From a virus, in the IMG/VR virus record IMGVR_UViG_3300024348_000210, positions 1 through 26,136 of that record: DNA of 26,136 bases; one strand, written 5' to 3'. The notes under the pieces were generated by a model that was not told the origin of the DNA, made no database searches, and worked only from the letters and a program-made list of their open reading frames with translations. A program made the position numbers and the translations under genes. Shown here piece after piece: positions 1-22,825 of this stretch (position 1 is its first letter; each line of letters opens with the position of its first letter).

Positions 1-447
1 ATCGGCATATTCTTTTGTTACCGCATCCTTGGCATCAATCGGAGTGCCAAGATTAGTGATTCTACTATCGGATACATTAATATTGCCAGCTGCGGCTAAT
101 ACTATGTCACCAATAGCAGTAGAGAGCGTATTTTCGTTAAACTGAAATGTACCGACATTAAATCGATTAATCCAGCCATTCGAATCGACTATAAGAGCCG
201 TATTAGCGGTTAACGTACCAAATGGCGCGAATTCGCCACCTAATAGATCGGTATAATACTTACCGCCGATAACCGTATGGTTAACTGCATTACCGGCAAC
301 TTCGCTGCCGGTACCGATATAGAGTTTATTACCACCAGCACCAGAATAATATGAATACGCTAATTCACCGTTTGCCAGTATACTTGGGTTACCGGAAGTA
401 CTAGATCGTTTTATTCTGAATAGTGGAAGATTTGGATTAACAGCCAT
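1..447 (-). CDS. Tail-fibre-like structural protein, N-terminal part (runs off window)
   Basis: An open frame of 149 codons starts with ATG at 447 and continues past position 1 without a stop. It begins MAVNPNLPLFRIKRSSTSGN and continues with ILANGELAYSYYSGAGGNKLYIGTG. This is the opening common in phage fibre proteins: a short strand with RxxS, then 'GELAYS...NKLYIG'. At the cut end it reads NLGTPIDAKDAVTKEYAD, resembling the 'DAxxKxYVD' segments that repeat in phage tail fibres. The ATG overlaps the TAA of the upstream 91-aa gene by one base (TAATG), implying coupled translation. Role inferred: attachment of a fibre or spike to the virion. The family-level call is moderate, and the receptor-binding part lies outside the window. 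Confidence 0.75.
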   Translation of the reverse strand, partial: MAVNPNLPLFRIKRSSTSGNPSILANGELAYSYYSGAGGNKLYIGTGSEVAGNAVNHTVIGGKYYTDLLGGEFAPFGTLTANTALIVDSNGWINRFNVGTFQFNENTLSTAIGDIVLAAAGNINVSDSRITNLGTPIDAKDAVTKEYAD

Positions 448-722
448 TAGTAAAACCCACCATCAAATTCTTGTTGGTTAAGTAATAACACTGGCTCCCA
501 TTTGGAAGTAGCGGTATTATATACTAATACTGAACCATTTTCAATGCCTACCAAAGTAACATCGCTGAGTTGTGCCATTGAACTAGCACCACCAGCTCCA
601 TTTGCATTTACCGCGTGTACTGGTCGGCCTAACGTTACTTTTTTAACGATAGTATTTTGACTGGTCGTTACCTTAGCAATGACCCGTTTTGTAGTACCCC
701 TTGAAGCAACGCGAAAAGCCAC
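447..722 (-). CDS. Small phage structural protein (91 aa), fibre-associated
   Basis: The start is GTG at 722, supported by a well-placed GAGG about 7 nt upstream and by the TAA of the preceding gene only three bases before. The protein has a basic N-terminal half (residues 1-30, many K/R/T), a Gly/Ala linker near 41-48, and a C-terminal part with QLSDVTL...NGSVLVYNTATSKWEP and the ending EFDGGFY. 'LSDV...NGSVLVYN...W' is a common adaptor-like motif in fibre and baseplate-periphery proteins of marine T4-like phages. It sits between a 118-aa structural protein and a tail-fibre-like gene, with tight spacing on both sides, so it probably shares their transcript. Specific function unknown. Confidence 0.7.
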   Translation of the reverse strand: MAFRVASRGTTKRVIAKVTTSQNTIVKKVTLGRPVHAVNANGAGGASSMAQLSDVTLVGIENGSVLVYNTATSKWEPVLLLNQQEFDGGFY

Positions 723-725
723 AGA

Positions 726-1082
726 TTACCTCGTTACTGATGGATTAACAGTAATTTTACCTTCTAAAATACGTTCAATCATTGTAACGCCGGCGCTGTC
801 CTGATACGACAATTCAACGTCATATACGTAACGACCACGGCTGGAAAGACTATCTGTCTGTGTATTGGATAAAGAAATAACTACAATACCGCTAGTAGGC
901 GGTGCTGCAATTATTGAAGTGAAATCTAACGTGTCGGCACTGTCGCTACTATAGTTGCGTTTTAATTTAGCCGCAACTGAATGTCCTGTTAGATTTTTTA
1001 CTGAACCATCGACGTTAACTAGCTCTATTTCTAAAGCAATATCAGCGCCTTGGTCAATCTTAAAATCTTCATATGTTGCCAT
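726..1082 (-). CDS. Small beta-rich virion structural protein (118 aa)
   Basis: ATG at 1082 begins MATYEDFKIDQGADIALEIEL, followed by DGSVKNLTGHSVAAKLKRNY and a C-terminal segment GRYVYDVELSY...RILEGKITVNPSVTR. The 'D(Q)G(A/S)D...LTG..V.A.(I/L)(K/R)...G.Y.YD(V/I).....v..GkI.V.P.VT' arrangement matches a small, all-beta structural family common near fibre genes in marine T4-like phages and reminiscent of baseplate-adaptor N-terminal domains. No membrane or signal segment is visible. The gene has its own T4-type late promoter and an unusual inverted repeat that covers its ribosome-binding site (see 1082-1160). It leads the block continuing into the 91-aa and fibre-like genes. Biochemical role unknown. 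Confidence 0.7.
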   Translation of the reverse strand: MATYEDFKIDQGADIALEIELVNVDGSVKNLTGHSVAAKLKRNYSSDSADTLDFTSIIAAPPTSGIVVISLSNTQTDSLSSRGRYVYDVELSYQDSAGVTMIERILEGKITVNPSVTR

Positions 1083-1160
1083 ATTACCGTTTTCCCAATC
1101 TTATGTATCAAAAACTCTTAATACTATTTATATGAAAATGAAACTAAGAAAACGGTAATA
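1082..1160 (-). promoter_or_regulatory. RBS-sequestering inverted repeat with late promoter in its loop
   Basis: A perfect 13-bp inverted repeat has arms at 1082-1094 (TATTACCGTTTTC on +) and 1148-1160 (GAAAACGGTAATA on +). In minus-strand RNA the stem extends inward by seven further pairs (1095-1101 with 1141-1147: three Watson-Crick, four G-U), giving about 20 bp with a 39-nt loop. The 3' arm includes the likely Shine-Dalgarno GGGA (1096-1093) and the A of the start codon at 1082. The late promoter at 1125-1132 and its expected start near 1118-1119 lie inside the loop. Only read-through RNA could therefore form the hairpin. A competing 6-bp hairpin (1155-1160 with 1165-1170, loop TCTC) uses the same upstream arm. 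Function is inferred by analogy to T4 e, soc and 49. Confidence 0.7.
1125..1132 (-). promoter_or_regulatory. T4-type late promoter (TATAAATA)
   Basis: The minus strand reads TATAAATAGT, the T4 late-promoter element plus the GT shared by three other sites in this window. It is 43 nt upstream of the 118-aa gene's ATG, in an 88-nt gap between genes. The expected start is near 1118-1119, giving a leader of about 36 nt. Confidence 0.8.
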
Positions 1161-1170
1161 TCTCTATTAC

Positions 1171-1878
1171 TTATTCTGCAGAGGAAATATCCGCAATTAC
1201 CATCTCACGAAATTCTTCTGAAGCCTGCGCAGTACTAAATGTATATGATACAGTGCATCTCCAGTTATCAGTTTCTGCTGCATGATATAACAATTTGTCT
1301 TGTTCGCCATAATGGCCAAAATAAGCTGCTTTACATGTCCATGCGCCGGCAGCATCTTCACATATAATTTCTTCTTTAGTAACCGGGTGAATGTATTTGA
1401 AACAACCTTCACCAAATTCAGACCACGTGAAAATCAAATTAAAAGCTGCAGCATTAGCATTGTTATGCCAAGAAATAAAACCGCCTGGAGGATAAATTGC
1501 ACATAAAGCATTATTTCGAACCGATAAAAAATTCATCATTTTATCGTTAAGAGTCGCCAGATGCATAGTGAAATCACGCTTGAACACAGGATCAGCATCT
1601 GGTTCAAATATCTGGTGATGTCTTTCGCCGAGCTTCAAGTTATAACCTACTAACTGCTCTGGGAAACCATCGTGTTTAGTTCCCATCAAAAGAATTTCTT
1701 CTTTATGTTTATCACCGGCATAGTACTTACGCTGTCTAGCGTGTTCTTTGGCGCTACAGTGGACATTCTCAGCAAATCCTTGCCACGTATGCAATTTGGC
1801 ATACTCGTTAAGAATCTCTAATAATTCTGGATTATTAATAGGAACGTGTTTTAAATATTCGTCGTTAAGCTGTGTCAT
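1171..1878 (-). CDS. 2-oxoglutarate/Fe(II) oxygenase-like protein (235 aa)
   Basis: The C-terminal half looks like a double-stranded beta-helix dioxygenase. CAIYPPGGFISWHNNANAAA has the first candidate metal ligand at H138. FNLIFTWSEFGEGCFKYI follows, and LLYHAAETDNWRCTVSYTF supplies the second histidine H199 and the 2-oxoglutarate-type arginine R207. The middle ligand of the usual HxD/E triad appears as Asn (H138-N139-N140), so metal binding may be altered; related phage proteins with a 'WHxN' pattern are, from memory, not unusual. The N-terminal 100 residues are helical and unassigned. Its ATG overlaps the stop of the glycosyltransferase gene by 4 nt (ATGA), implying translational coupling. 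Likely role, inferred: hydroxylation of a protein or small molecule in the infected cell. Alternative: a cupin-like protein without oxygenase activity. Confidence 0.6.
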   Translation of the reverse strand: MTQLNDEYLKHVPINNPELLEILNEYAKLHTWQGFAENVHCSAKEHARQRKYYAGDKHKEEILLMGTKHDGFPEQLVGYNLKLGERHHQIFEPDADPVFKRDFTMHLATLNDKMMNFLSVRNNALCAIYPPGGFISWHNNANAAAFNLIFTWSEFGEGCFKYIHPVTKEEIICEDAAGAWTCKAAYFGHYGEQDKLLYHAAETDNWRCTVSYTFSTAQASEEFREMVIADISSAE

Positions 1879-2600
1879 ACGATTGGTTTATCCTTATTTA
1901 GGCCAGCAGAGAAGTGTCTAATGATAACTTCACCTTCTGGTCGGGTTCTCGCCCAATTTAGTGCGTTATAGTAATTCCATCTTAGATCGTCATCAAAAAT
2001 TCCGATCTTAAGATCTTTATACTTAGGTTCTTTTTCAGTTAACCACCATAATGAGAATTGGTCCCACGACTTAAGGCTATCAGCATAACCTTTTGGCCAC
2101 CATTCACCGTCCATTTGACGTCTGGTTAAATCCCACCAATCAGCCATAAATTCACGGATAATTGGTTTTCGCATATCATATAAACAAACTGCCCCACACA
2201 ATCTAAACTTGGCAGGACCTTCTGGGGTGCTAAAATCTCGTTCAGCGTAAATATAACTACGCTCATCGGTTAATTCAGACCATACCATATCATGATCTTT
2301 AAGTTCATCCCAGACCTTTCTAATATCTTCGTGCTCAACTTCCATATCAGCATCGATATACATTGCGATGTCATAAGGTACTTTTGCCATACCAAAAAGT
2401 TTTGCGCGATAATGATCATCACAAAAAATAACATCATCAGCAATCTCTTCGCGACCGTCTAGAAACCTTTCTTCAGTTACCAAACAAATCTTGGCATCTT
2501 CATAGTAATCTCTAATAGATTCGCATAGATTAATTGCATACAAATAAAAATTATGATTTTTGGAGGCAACAACCACAAAACCTTTAGTAGGCTCACTCAT
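1875..2600 (-). CDS. GT8-like glycosyltransferase (241 aa)
   Basis: The protein has GT-A-fold hallmarks in order: an N-terminal strand GFVVVASKNHNFYLYAINLC (residues 7-26) as in nucleotide-sugar-binding folds, the metal-binding DxD motif in MYIDADMEVEH (D83, D85), an acceptor-side segment LCGAVCLYD (about 134-142), WDQFSLWWL (179-187), and a terminal RHFSAGLNKDKPI (H229, K236/K238) resembling the HxxGxxKPW of retaining GT8 enzymes. The length is about that of a single catalytic domain, with no membrane anchor or signal peptide, so it is cytoplasmic. It overlaps the upstream 158-aa gene by 8 nt and the downstream oxygenase-like gene by 4 nt. Substrate unknown. The location beside Ser/Thr/Tyr/Asn-rich giant fibres makes glycosylation of virion proteins plausible but unproven; nucleotide-sugar use for host surface or DNA is an alternative. 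Confidence 0.75.
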   Translation of the reverse strand: MSEPTKGFVVVASKNHNFYLYAINLCESIRDYYEDAKICLVTEERFLDGREEIADDVIFCDDHYRAKLFGMAKVPYDIAMYIDADMEVEHEDIRKVWDELKDHDMVWSELTDERSYIYAERDFSTPEGPAKFRLCGAVCLYDMRKPIIREFMADWWDLTRRQMDGEWWPKGYADSLKSWDQFSLWWLTEKEPKYKDLKIGIFDDDLRWNYYNALNWARTRPEGEVIIRHFSAGLNKDKPIV

Positions 2601-3069
2601 CAGTAGATTCTACCTTTTCAGCTTCAGCAATAGCCATAGCATCTTGTAAAATCATGATAGACCACATATCAACTTCGATTCTGGACTTAGCACGACGCAA
2701 TTTTGCTTTAAGAGCACGGTTTTTAGAATTTTTAATTTCATCAACTTCAAAAGCTTCAAGCTTGTAGTTGAAAAGTTTTTCTAATTTTCGTGCTTTTTGA
2801 TGCTCCAAATCACGTTGGGCTTCTTCTTCCTTTTGTGCTGCTTTACGTACAACTCGATCTGTTGTTTCTTTATCGATAGTTTCTTCGCCAAGCGCATTAA
2901 CTACTTCTTCAAAGTCCGGATTCGGTTTACCTTCTTTATCGTGGCGTTTAAGTAGCATTACCTGTCTGGTAGTTCTACCTACGTCATCTTCAATTTCCAA
3001 GATACAATTTAATTGATCTTTGGCTTCAGTTTCCCAAAACGCATTATTCATCCATCGCTTATAACTCAT
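2593..3069 (-). CDS. Charged coiled-coil protein of unknown function (158 aa)
   Basis: ATG at 3069 has a clear GGAG about 10 nt upstream. The N-terminal 65 residues (YKRWMNNAFWETEAKDQLNC, LEIEDDVGRTTRQVMLLKRH, then NPDFEEVVN) look beta-rich. Residues 70-140 are highly charged and helical (KEEEAQRDLEHQKARKLEKL, then KNRALKAKLRRAKSRIEVD), probably coiled coil. I associate this kind of protein with hypothetical proteins near structural genes in marine T4-like phages but cannot assign a role; a chaperone or assembly factor for the adjacent fibres is a guess from position. It is the first gene of a three-gene cassette with overlapping stops and starts, downstream of a hairpin terminator. No exact late promoter precedes it, only a weak TATAAAAC variant, so its timing may differ from its neighbours. 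Confidence 0.75.
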   Translation of the reverse strand: MSYKRWMNNAFWETEAKDQLNCILEIEDDVGRTTRQVMLLKRHDKEGKPNPDFEEVVNALGEETIDKETTDRVVRKAAQKEEEAQRDLEHQKARKLEKLFNYKLEAFEVDEIKNSKNRALKAKLRRAKSRIEVDMWSIMILQDAMAIAEAEKVESTDE

Positions 3070-3107
3070 TTACATCTTCTCCAAAGGGGGGTTTCAATCA
3101 ATTCAAG

Positions 3108-3115
3108 GTTTTATA
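3108..3115 (-). promoter_or_regulatory. Weak promoter candidate TATAAAAC for the enzyme cassette
   Basis: The gap between the terminator and the 158-aa gene lacks an exact late element. The best match on the minus strand is TATAAAAC, 39 nt upstream of the ATG, embedded in AT-rich DNA. It could be a degenerate late promoter or a -10 hexamer, but no good -35 is visible at 17 nt. Confidence 0.25.
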
Positions 3116-3137
3116 ATGTATATATTATTTTAATAAA

Positions 3138-3157
3138 GTGGCTCCCGGAAGAGCCAC
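3138..3157 (-). terminator. Hairpin terminator after the 1630-aa gene
   Basis: A perfect 7-bp GC-rich stem (GTGGCTC/GAGCCAC) with a 6-nt loop lies 14 nt past the TAA of the 1630-aa gene. On the minus strand it is followed by TTTATTAAAATAATA, a moderate U-rich tail. It separates the giant fibre genes from the enzyme cassette. Confidence 0.75.
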
Positions 3158-3170
3158 GATATTATTTTCT

Positions 3171-6100
3171 TTATGCCAATCGCACATATAACGTATAAGT
3201 TTCAACAGGCGTTGATGATGATTGAATAGTAAGACCAGTATAGTTACCGATAAAACTACGTGAGTAGTTACCGATAAAGGTCCTAGAATAATCACCAGCA
3301 AAGTCTCTACTATAATTACCGGCAAAATCGCCAGCAAAAGTAATAGAACTATTTCTTGTTGATACTGAAGTATATGAACTAGTTCTTACTCTAGTATAAC
3401 TTGACTGTCGTGTTCTAGTGAAAACATTTGTAGAATTTCTAGTATACGTACCAGCAAAGCCTCTAGTATATACGCCGGTATAAACGGCACTGTAAGTAGA
3501 AGTTCTTGTTCTAGCATACGTACCAGCAAAATCCCGTGAATAGTTACCAATAAAGTCACGTGAATAGTTGCCTATATAGTTACCAGTATAGGTTGATACT
3601 CTTTCACGTACATAGTTACCTTCGAATGAACGAGTGTAGTTACCTATATATGTGTTGTTAAACGTGGTAGTATACGCACCAGCATATTCACCAGCAAAGT
3701 TACGAGTATAGTTACCGATAAAGGTAGTAGCAAAGTCTCTGGCATAGTTACCTATAAAGTCACGGGTATAGTTACCAGTGAAAGTAGTATTATACGTACC
3801 AGTGTATTCACCAGCAAAGTCACGAGTATACGTACCAGTGTATTCACCAGCAAAGTCACGTGCATAGTTACCTGCATATTCACCAGCAAATGTTCTTGAA
3901 TAATTACCTATGTAGTTACCTATAAAGCTGCGAGCATAGTTACCAACATATTCACCAGCAAAGCTGCGAGCATAGTTACCAACATATTCACCAGCAAAGT
4001 TACGTGCATAGTTGCCTGCGTATTCACCAGCAAAGGCACGGGCATAGTTACCTGCGTACTCACCAATAAAGTTTCTAGTATACGTACCAGCATATTCACC
4101 AATAAAGTTTCTAGTATACGTACCAGCATATTCACCGATAAAGTCACGAGTATACGTACCAGCATATTCACCGATAAAGTCACGGGCATAGTTACCTGCG
4201 TACTCACCAATAAAGTTTCTAGTATACGTACCAGCATATTCACCGATAAAGTCACGAGTATAGTTGCCTACGTAGTTACCAATAAAGGTATTAGCATAGT
4301 CGCCAACATAGTTACCAGTAAAGTTGCGAGCATATTCGCCAGCAAAGTTACGGCTATAGTTACCGATAAAGTCACCAGCAAAGTTAGTTAACTGATCTCT
4401 TGCATAAGCACTAGTACGGGTACGGGCATATGTTGAATAACGGACTCGAGAATAAGCAGAGGCACGAGTTCTAGTACTAGTACGTGTATATAAACCAGTA
4501 TAGTTACCTACGTAATCGCCAGCAAAGCCTCTTGTATAGTCACCTACGAAGTTACCAGCATAATCACGGGCATAGTTGCCTACGAAGTTACCTGCATAGT
4601 CAGTAATACGAGTACGAGCATAGTTGCCTACGAAGTCACCAACGTAATCACCAACGTAGTTGCCTACGAAGTTGCCGACGTAATCAGTAATACGAGTGCG
4701 CGAATATTGACCAATAAAGTTTCGGGCATAAAATCCAGCGTATTCGCCTACAAAATCACCAATGTAATCAGTAACACGAGTGCGACCATAGTTACCTACG
4801 AAGTCACCGACATAGTTGCCTACGTAGTTACCTACGAAGTCGCCGACATAGTTGGTAACTCGAGTTCTAGCATAGTAACCAACGTATTCACCGACGTATG
4901 CCGTATTTCCAGCATAAGCAGATGTGCGTGTATAGTCAGTAATACGAGTTCTAGCATAAGCACCAGCAAAATTACCAGTAAAGGTTAGGTTGCGTGCATA
5001 ATAGAATGTAGAACCACGCGTACGCGTATAGTTACTTGTTGTAGCATAAGCAGTTACACGATCTCTTGTGTAATCTAATGTGGCAGCTCTGTTTCTAGTA
5101 TAATAGAGCGTGCCAGCTACGGCTCTAGTATAATCAACTAATACCCCGCGGGCTCTAGTGTAATATACAGTGGTACCCTGATATACAGTACGGGTATAAT
5201 CAGAAACTGTAGTAGATACACGGCTATAGTTACCTAGGAACGGAGTTGGTTCACCAGCAATAACTCTAGAATATAACTTAGAGAACGTCAGGGTTGTTGC
5301 GGCAGATCTGGTATAGTTACCGGTATATGGCCCGCCGATTTCTATTCTAGAATAGTCACCGACATAATAGATTGTATTTGTATAGTTACCGGTATATGTT
5401 ACTGCGGCAGCATAATCACCAGTATATGTTACTGCGGTGGTATAGTTACCTACGAAGTTACCAGCATAATACAAAGTTCTAGTATAATCACCGACATAGT
5501 TAACAGCAGTAGCATAAGCAGAAGTACGGGTAGAATCAGTTACTCTTGTTCTGCCGTAGTTACCTACGTAGTCGCCAGTATAAGTTAAGTTGCGAGCATA
5601 ATAGAATGTAGAATTACGAGTTCTAGAATATGTACCAGCATAGTTACCTACGAAGTCACCAGTATAAGTCGTAATACGCGTACGGGTGTAATCAGCGGCA
5701 TAGTCGGTTACGCGAGTTCGTGCATAAGTACCAGCATAGTTACCAGTAAAGGTTGCTATGATGGTGCGAGAATAAACACCAGTATAAGCACTAGCACGTA
5801 CACGTGTATATGTACCACCATAGTTACCGGTAAAGGTTTGTAGACGGTCTCTGGTATAATCAGCGGCATAGTTGGTAATACGAGTACGAGCATACGTACC
5901 ACCATAGTTGCCGGTATATGTTACTACGTTATCGCGAGTATACGTATTGGCAAAGTTGGTGACACGATCTCTTACATATGCAGAGTATCTAGTTCTAGTA
6001 GAAGTCGTTATTGTCGTACGAGCATAGTTACCTACGAAATCACCAGCAAAAGTACGGGCATAATCACCAGTAAATGCGCGGGCATAATCGCCGGCGAAGT

Positions 6101-20780: not shown

Positions 20781-21764
20781 TTACGCTAGAAGCGCGCCTT
20801 CGTTATTAGTTACCATCCACTGAGTACCAGTCCAAATAAGAGTTACGGCATCATTGTTAGACATTGTGATTGTAGAATAATTTTTTAAATTAGTAGGAGT
20901 AACATTTACTTCACCACTATTAATATTCATTAGTTTCTTTTCTTCACCTGTTGCTGTACCGTTGCCCATAGTAACAGACATACTAATAGCAGAGTTAAAG
21001 AAAGTAAGTGGCACTTTTAAATCAACCGCACCGGCCGCAGTCATATTCTGAGAACCTAACGCAACTTTATTTTTAAAACTAATTGCTCCAGTACCTTTTG
21101 TTGCAATATCCAAACCGATATTAGTATCAGTGCCATCAACCGAAAGTTTAGGAGGGTATAATTGAATACTATTATCCACAGAAAGAAAGTTAACAGCAGA
21201 ACTAACTGGAGTAAACTCTATTAAAGTACTTCCGCTGTTATCTGCGATTAAATCATTAATACGTGGAGAAGTGATTACTGGAGCAGTTAATGTTTTATTC
21301 ACTAGTGTCTGCGCGAAATTATTGAACGTAAAAGTATCATCCGTCAATAAAGCAGGCAATGTCACATTAACGCTAGCAGATAACGCAGAAGGCAGTATGA
21401 CATACTCATATGGATTGCCGTCTTTAATACGCGGCATGATGAGCAATACTTCATCCATTGTTTTATCGTTTAATGTTTGAGCAGAATTAGTTAAAACGAA
21501 ATCACCGTCTGCATCAGGAAGAGTCAACAGTCGATCTGTGGTAGCGGCTGATGCAACTAAGCTTATACTATATAATGATAATCCAGGCTGAGTAAATAAA
21601 ATACCATCGCTGTCAAATGACATTTTCTGAGATAGATTAAATCCATCGCCAAACTTAGTATAAAGATCGGTGAAGTTCTGTTCTATCTTAAGGGATGCTT
21701 GACGGAGAGTATCACCTGTTCCATCGTTAGCAATTGTTCCCAAGTTAAGTTGCTGTCTGCTCAT
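20781..21764 (-). CDS. Fibre-connector-like protein with gp9/gp10-type N-terminus (327 aa)
   Basis: The first 40 residues (QLNLGTIANDGTGDTLRQAS, then LKIEQNFTDLY) match the N-terminal signature of T4 gp10 (INIGNVVDDGTGDYLRKGG...KINENFDELY) and, more weakly, gp9, which these proteins use to sit on the wedge. The rest has no gp10 pin domains. It carries two similar stretches (SAQTLNDKTMDEVLLIMPRI and FAQTLVNKTLTAPVITSPRI) of the 'TLxNKTLxxPxI' type frequent in phage fibres, then a beta-rich end with NNDAVTLIWTGTQWMV. It has its own late promoter and AGGT with long spacing. Inferred role: a baseplate protein connecting a fibre. Its place between 7 and 8 differs from T4. Confidence 0.75.
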   Translation of the reverse strand: MSRQQLNLGTIANDGTGDTLRQASLKIEQNFTDLYTKFGDGFNLSQKMSFDSDGILFTQPGLSLYSISLVASAATTDRLLTLPDADGDFVLTNSAQTLNDKTMDEVLLIMPRIKDGNPYEYVILPSALSASVNVTLPALLTDDTFTFNNFAQTLVNKTLTAPVITSPRINDLIADNSGSTLIEFTPVSSAVNFLSVDNSIQLYPPKLSVDGTDTNIGLDIATKGTGAISFKNKVALGSQNMTAAGAVDLKVPLTFFNSAISMSVTMGNGTATGEEKKLMNINSGEVNVTPTNLKNYSTITMSNNDAVTLIWTGTQWMVTNNEGALLA

Positions 21765-21793
21765 GTTTTTTTATACCTAAAAAATCTTATTAC

Positions 21794-21801
21794 TATTTAT
21801 A
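21794..21801 (-). promoter_or_regulatory. T4-type late promoter (TATAAATA) for the 327-aa gene
   Basis: The minus strand reads TATAAATAGT, 30 nt upstream of the ATG at 21764. The TAA stop of gp7 (21799-21797) is embedded in the element. Confidence 0.8.
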
Positions 21802-22825
21802 ACAATTCTATGAGCGACTTTTCGCTATCTGAATCGTTAGGTTCAATCCAAGTAAATCTTTCTTGGTTAATAGGTTCTGTACTGCTTATCTTCATACCGT
21901 TGATGTTTCCTACGTCGTCATCATCATCTAGTGTAGGTGAATCTGGGGTTAAGTATTCGCCGATGCTTGAGTAGTTGTCATCTAGTTCTTGTAGTGTTCT
22001 ATTTTGTAGATCAATCAAATCATTACCGCCAAATTCAGGATATGTTATTTCAGAACCCATATTTGTTCTGAATAATGTAATAGGTTCGCTGATGCCCGCA
22101 ATATTAAACATTGCTGTATGTTGAGAATGCGCTGTCATATCCAAAGCAGCTTGACCGGATACTTCATATGGCGGAAGATCCAAAACGCCAGGATTAGGCT
22201 GATCTTCAATTGCCAAATCTACAAAACCAACGATCTGGACTTCTGCTCCTAAATACATTCCGGCCGGGTGTACGAACGTCTTGTATATTGATCGCCAATT
22301 TTCAGACGGCAATTCTGATTTAATTTGTAAAGCAAACGTTTGGTATAACTTGTCATCAGTAATATATTTTTGTGATTCAGCGCCAATAAATGATTCGCCG
22401 ACATTAAAAATATATTTTTTAGTGTAGATAATATCCGGGTCAATAGAAAAAAACATTCTAAAGAATTGCTGGATAGAATACTTAGTACCTTTTGATCGAT
22501 ATAATAAGTTAGAATACTTGGCAGCATCTCGTTTATTTGAAAATCCACCAAAGTATGATTGACCTAATAGTAACTCGTCTTCGATATATGCTAATAGATC
22601 TAAGTCGGTTTGACTAATATCGCGAGTAGTAAATAATTCATCAATTAATCTAGATGGTGAAAACTCTTCATTTTCGATATGATAATATTCACTAAGTAGT
22701 TTCACCAACTTAGGATACGTTTCAATGATATAACCAGGAAGAACTTCTTCAACTTTATACTGTCGAAGATTTAGATTCCTTCTACCTATATCAAATAAAG
22801 TCCGATCAAACGTTTCGATGCTCAT
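21797..22825 (-). CDS. 7: Baseplate wedge protein gp7, short form (342 aa)
   Basis: This corresponds to the C-terminal third of T4 gp7 (1032 aa). YIIETYPKLVKLLSEYY (residues 32-48) parallels a T4 segment FEAFCEAYIQYLSDGY. NKRDAAKYSNLLYRSKGTKY (97-116), then SIQQFFRMFF, parallels NADKRDAVARFF...KGIEASYKFLFKVL. ALQIKSELPSENWRSIYKTF (165-184), then VHPAG, parallels VMKIKSNLPSSRWKSDVIRFVHPVG. The large N-terminal domains of T4 gp7 are missing, and an acidic tail of about 135 residues replaces T4's end. In T4, gp7 forms the wedge core with gp6 and contacts gp10, gp8 and gp53. Its ATG begins one base after the gp6 stop, so it is probably translated by coupling; no clear Shine-Dalgarno is visible. 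Confidence 0.85.
   Translation of the reverse strand: MSIETFDRTLFDIGRRNLNLRQYKVEEVLPGYIIETYPKLVKLLSEYYHIENEEFSPSRLIDELFTTRDISQTDLDLLAYIEDELLLGQSYFGGFSNKRDAAKYSNLLYRSKGTKYSIQQFFRMFFSIDPDIIYTKKYIFNVGESFIGAESQKYITDDKLYQTFALQIKSELPSENWRSIYKTFVHPAGMYLGAEVQIVGFVDLAIEDQPNPGVLDLPPYEVSGQAALDMTAHSQHTAMFNIAGISEPITLFRTNMGSEITYPEFGGNDLIDLQNRTLQELDDNYSSIGEYLTPDSPTLDDDDDVGNINGMKISSTEPINQERFTWIEPNDSDSEKSLIELL

Follow-up and report, generated by a model that had tools for sequence, protein, structure and literature searches.

How can a gene for a structural protein be kept from translation while the genes that lie upstream of it are being transcribed? The question is raised by the leader of a minus-strand gene of 118 codons in a stretch of viral DNA of 26,136 nucleotides (IMG/VR record IMGVR_UViG_3300024348_000210; hereafter the window), in which a late promoter lies within the loop of a hairpin that takes in the start signal of the gene. 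From its sequence and predicted folding, we consider the leader likely (with a probability of roughly 0.85) to be a transcript-start-dependent translational switch on a tail-collar gene; across a large group of marine T4-like phages, read-through messages probably keep the start signal hidden in a fold, and it would be freed only in messages from the gene's own late promoter. Read-through RNA from the upstream enzyme cassette would bear both arms of a 21-bp stem, which would mask the Shine-Dalgarno (SD) region and the start codon and leave the gene silent. Late transcription would begin at TATAAATA in the loop, and because it would start there, the late mRNA would be without the upstream arm and translatable. 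The likely purpose, and the presumed benefit to the phage, would be transcription of the cassette early in infection without premature production of a virion part.

The controlled gene and its neighbours

The product of the 118-aa gene (726..1082, minus strand) matches phrog_1084 and phrog_3304 (L-shaped tail fibre assembly), and its predicted fold, with a pLDDT of 93, retrieved the T5 and DT57C tail-tip chains of 7qg9 and 8hqz in a structure search (E 1e-8 to 2.5e-7). This predicted likeness in fold to the T5 and DT57C tail-tip proteins makes it very likely that the product, which resembles the T5 tail-tip collar, is a part of the virion; identity to these proteins is about 21–24%, and the likeness is one of product, not of switch. 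Upstream lie the three co-directional genes of the cassette, all on the minus strand: a gene of 158 aa with no assigned function (2593..3069), a glycosyltransferase-like gene of 241 aa with a weak match to PF00535 (1875..2600; E=0.0046, below the Pfam cut-off), and a gene of 235 aa (1171..1878), possibly 2OG-oxygenase-like by motif only, with no family match and a poor predicted fold (pLDDT 50). Between the structural operon and the cassette is a terminator-like hairpin (3157-3138, minus strand), and many relatives have a similar hairpin in the corresponding position; in many, too, a sigma70-like promoter stands just before the hairpin. The hairpin of the window is followed on the minus strand by an element, TATATACATTATAA, placed before the cassette and similar in relatives. 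A conserved element that precedes the cassette, TATATACAT, was considered as a promoter class and rejected for want of support, since the relative C48C1 has only four CTATATAC sites.

Stem, start region and predicted folding

The original prediction described a perfect inverted repeat of 13 bp; the repeat is real and perfect, but its length is 14 bp (plus strand 1081-1094, atattaccgttttc, and 1148-1161, gaaaacggtaatat), and it takes in the A and U with which the reading frame of the 118-aa gene opens. In minus-strand RNA it is extended inward by three Watson–Crick and four G-U pairs, exactly as had been claimed, to a total of 21 bp (about 20 in the prediction), in the sequence as in the minimum free energy (MFE) fold: 1147U.G1095, 1146U.G1096, 1145A-U1097, 1144G.U1098, 1143U-A1099, 1142U.G1100 and 1141U-A1101. 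The 5' (upstream) arm spans 1141..1161 and the 3' (downstream) arm 1081..1101, both on the minus strand and both supported by sequence, MFE fold and pair probabilities. The latter arm covers the SD-like GGGA as well as the AU of the AUG, which agrees with the earlier claim of a stem over the SD and the start-codon A; the full SD-like motif within it, GGGAA, lies at 1092..1096 (minus strand). The promoter scan places the T4-type late promoter TATAAATA at 1132-1125 on the minus strand, in the loop as predicted, which is 39 nt long inside the 21-bp stem. Late transcription is expected to start at 1117..1121 (~1119), likewise in the loop, about 6 nt downstream of TATAAATA if the spacing of T4 late promoters applies, and given such a start the 5' arm would be missing from late transcripts. 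An Rfam covariance-model search of positions 1-4000 of the window gave no match at E<=1.

No other 14-bp repeat with a spacer of up to 60 nt occurs in the window, and none of 100 dinucleotide-resampled windows contained one. It might be supposed that the repeat is a by-product of chance or composition, as the sequence is AT-rich and a 6-bp start-codon pairing is seen at another late promoter of the window (21801); against the resampled windows and the covariation of the family described below, which excludes chance, such an origin is scarcely credible. The pairing at that other promoter (21801-21794, minus strand, region 21764-21820) is GCTCAT/ATGAGC, lies over the start codon, and may be due to chance.

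The RNA from 1200 to 1060 has an MFE of -32.7 kcal/mol, compared with -20.9 +/- 3.2 kcal/mol for its shuffles (z -3.66; 0/200), whereas the structure of the RNA beginning at 1118 is ordinary relative to shuffles (z +0.5), and the folding check proposed at the outset sets the two transcripts apart. In the predicted read-through RNA the main stem has a mean pair probability of 0.98, and the SD together with the AU of the AUG is unpaired with a probability of 0.000-0.06; for GGGAA the range is 0.000-0.005, as against 0.25-0.87 in the late RNA. The predicted cost of opening the start region is 13.9-14.6 kcal/mol in the read-through RNA and 6.5-7.0 kcal/mol in RNAs starting at 1117-1120. The idea of a silent read-through RNA and an open late RNA is therefore borne out insofar as the predicted folds separate the two; the late RNA, however, is predicted to be not fully open, since its AUG is still paired (P unpaired ~0.02-0.1). 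For this reason the switch would be a large change in accessibility with no clean on/off state, and the size of the repression is a quantity that we infer. A small competing hairpin, which had been suggested to modulate the stem (~1156-1171, 6 bp, -2.6 kcal/mol), can be set aside, as its probability is at most 0.0002 against 0.98 for the main stem and no counterpart was seen in the leaders of relatives.

Turnover of the arms among relatives and association with the cassette

A near-identity search of phage records with the window sequence gave no match. By tblastn, the 118-aa gene was found in 75 phage records, mostly of cyanophages, and scans of viral contigs brought together about 120 loci of the gene family, among which TATAAATA is conserved at a suitable distance in 77 distinct leaders. 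The arms of the relatives differ while the architecture is alike (CCTTAAACTGT/ACAGTTTAAGG, CCTCAAGATGT/ACATCTTGGGG, CCAGTTTC/GAAACTGG and CCTAGTTTC/GAACTAGG), and 18 sets of arms have no 8-mer in common, which amounts to a complete turnover of sequence with the pairing kept. In a set of 17 leaders, changes on both sides that keep the pairing occur at 9/24 pairs (17 cells), a count as high being reached in 0/500 shuffles and slid control versions giving only 1-6 pairs, although these controls leave the relatedness of the loci in place and, because the loci are related, counts and p-values across leaders, here and below, are not independent. RNAalifold recovers the core of the stem from the alignment of these 17 leaders. 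Among the four leaders of the window's own type, both-side changes are present at 4/13 pairs (1/500 shuffles), and in a third group, in which 98% of cells are paired and variation is small, at two pairs (49/500 shuffles). The counts from alignment A3 are lowered by misplaced gaps in L048 and L038. The comparison of arms in related phages, named beforehand as a way to check the stem, accordingly finds complementarity preserved through changes on both sides.

Across the stems of the family, G-U pairs outnumber A-C pairs by 53:11 in a strand-neutral score, and the sense stem is stabler than the antisense stem in 42/48 leaders (p=1e-8). Since the opposite strand would have an A-C mismatch wherever the transcript has a G-U pair, this excess points to selection acting on the RNA, an argument that the original prediction had made from the window and that holds family-wide. 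The same figures bear on the possibility that the repeat is an element of the DNA, either an operator bound by a dimeric regulator or a cruciform formed at the late promoter. Its symmetry about a promoter would suit such an element; however, no arm sequence persists across the relatives, as would be needed for an operator recognised by its sequence, the G-U to A-C asymmetry is not expected of DNA, and the repeat is mostly absent at other late promoters of these phages, all of which renders a DNA element highly improbable.

The relation of the stem to its surroundings was followed by ddG, the rise in the opening cost of the start region from late to read-through RNA. Where the cassette lies directly upstream, ddG exceeds 6 kcal/mol in 46/59 leaders; the figure is 2/16 for family leaders without it and 6/73 for the remaining late promoters of these phages, a control set that had been cleared of alternative starts of the 118-aa gene. 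In one subclade (L072, L075, L083, L087) the cassette is kept and the stem is absent. Of the stem-bearing loci, 30/39 have a sigma70-like promoter scoring at least 10 ahead of the cassette, as against 5/13 of those that are stem-less (Fisher p=0.017, Spearman rho 0.52); in many relatives it lies directly past the stop of the structural gene, as TTGACA-17-TATAAT in L003, L038, L047 and L122. Because most stem-bearing relatives have such a promoter before the cassette, read-through from the cassette is plausible. In C48C1 the strong matches to this promoter class cluster beside replication genes, which suggests that the class is perhaps an early one. Before the cassette of the window the best sigma70-like match is 7/12 (p=0.99), not above chance, and as the window is without a clear promoter of this class, it is above all for the window phage that early transcription of the cassette would rest on the relatives. 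L045 (4900-5001), which keeps the gene and the 158-aa cassette gene, lacks the late promoter together with the two arms, a joint absence in line with the switch.

A stem situated mainly behind a co-directional cassette could also serve to split the cassette mRNA from the tail mRNA, as a site for RNase III or other processing or as a stabiliser of the mRNA 3' end. This location would fit, and 21 bp is near the length that RNase III requires (general knowledge), but processing leaves unexplained why the SD or AUG falls in the 3' arm, including in groups whose 3' arms lie at differing distances from the start codon, and we regard it as improbable. Much the same standing is given to an intrinsic terminator of the upstream cassette with the next promoter placed in its loop. 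Five of the 49 strong leaders do have at least five T shortly before the start codon, with seven in L038 and L047 (T runs were counted directly in the leaders, as a U run is often taken up within the duplex). Most leaders, however, including that of the window, are without a T run after the stem, and 46/49 have an SD-like hexamer within the 3' arm. An intrinsic terminator has a GC-rich stem, a short loop and a U run; in the window, the loop of 39 nt inside a 21-bp stem is long, there is no U run, and the site is not among the terminator-like hairpins listed by the terminator scan.

While a translational switch is the reading that we prefer, the stretch may carry further functions in some relatives. 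In leaders of the C48C1 type and the CCTTAAACTGT type, the TATAAA of the late promoter pairs with a UUUAUA of the leader to form the upper stem; a few of these stems end in a U run. This upper helix, TATAAA included, is paired in 81% of cells of the 17-leader set; covariation cannot prove it, because the promoter side cannot vary. It is conceivable, although we rate it as rather doubtful, that in these relatives one short stretch serves as promoter, as anti-RBS strand and as partial terminator, in a compact module that has arisen anew, with different sequences, behind the same cassette.

Known switches and a second gene with the device

The late genes e, soc and 49 of T4, as well as I-TevI, segB and Aeh1 mobE of this class, are carried on long early or middle transcripts in which the ribosome binding site (RBS) is sequestered, and a late promoter excludes the 5' strand of the helix (PMC3014915, PMC2988022). 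For gene e, late RNA is without the 5' strand of the inhibitory RBS helix and early read-through RNA is silent, an effect of about 100-fold, and the marine T4-like phages syn9, S-PM2 and PSSM2 are listed without gene e (PMC3014915). The likeness to T4 e, soc and 49 that had been drawn from the window is apt (PMC3014915, PMC2988022). As in the 118-aa leader, the late promoters of e lie upstream of the RBS and the late RNA would lose the 5' strand (PMC3014915), whereas e differs in controlling lysis, in its two tandem late promoters and in its shorter stem. The genes soc and 49 give late products behind early genes, with the SD or AUG in a helix (PMC3014915), and soc encodes a virion protein, as the 118-aa gene is predicted to do. 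The leaders of I-TevI/II/III, segB and Aeh1 mobE resemble the 118-aa leader in that late RNA is without the 5' strand (PMC2988022), but the genes they control code for mobile endonucleases, located inside introns or in the gaps between genes. In the ddG assay, T4 gene 26 (12.8), I-TevII (12.7) and e (11.2) were highest, with gene identities taken from coordinates; soc reached only 3.3, which marks the assay as imperfect, and gene 49 was outside what the start-site scan captured.

By sequence, the window element has the features of the T4 e/soc/49/I-TevI class: the SD and start codon are inside an RNA helix in the predicted fold, the late promoter TATAAATA lies between the two strands of the stem, where transcription is expected to start, and the helix is conserved by compensatory change, more weakly in the third leader group. 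Translational timing of the kind known for T4 e, soc, 49 and I-TevI is the reading that fits best. Textbook examples of such control are T4 e, soc and 49 together with the homing endonucleases; here the same architecture extends across diverse uncultivated marine T4-like phages, at the gene of a virion tail protein as well as at a second small gene, and the sequence of the arms has been wholly replaced with the pairing kept. The loci form a large comparative data set on the gain and loss of such switches, and also a natural experiment, as the stem accompanies the co-directional enzyme cassette and is mostly missing beside a different neighbour. Within the collection of papers searched, none mentions late promoters, ribosome binding sites and hairpins along with cyanophages, a result that speaks only weakly for a true absence.

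A different GC-rich hairpin, GGAGCAGGG(GCGCGCGC)GTCCGACAA, is placed between the late promoter and the start codon, just upstream of the 118-aa gene, in L005 (3440-3512) and also in L120, L126 and L132; its bases vary among these loci, for example GGGTGCTGCGGCACCG in L126, with the pairing apparently kept. The second small gene encodes an 89-aa membrane-like protein, and in C48C1 (at 81032) and 38 relatives (L023:30950-31040 and L139-L176 among the loci) it has the same RBS hairpin with a late promoter in the loop. Its leader reads CTCTCYGTC-tataaata-...GGAGAG, and ddG exceeds 6 in 15/17 distinct leaders.
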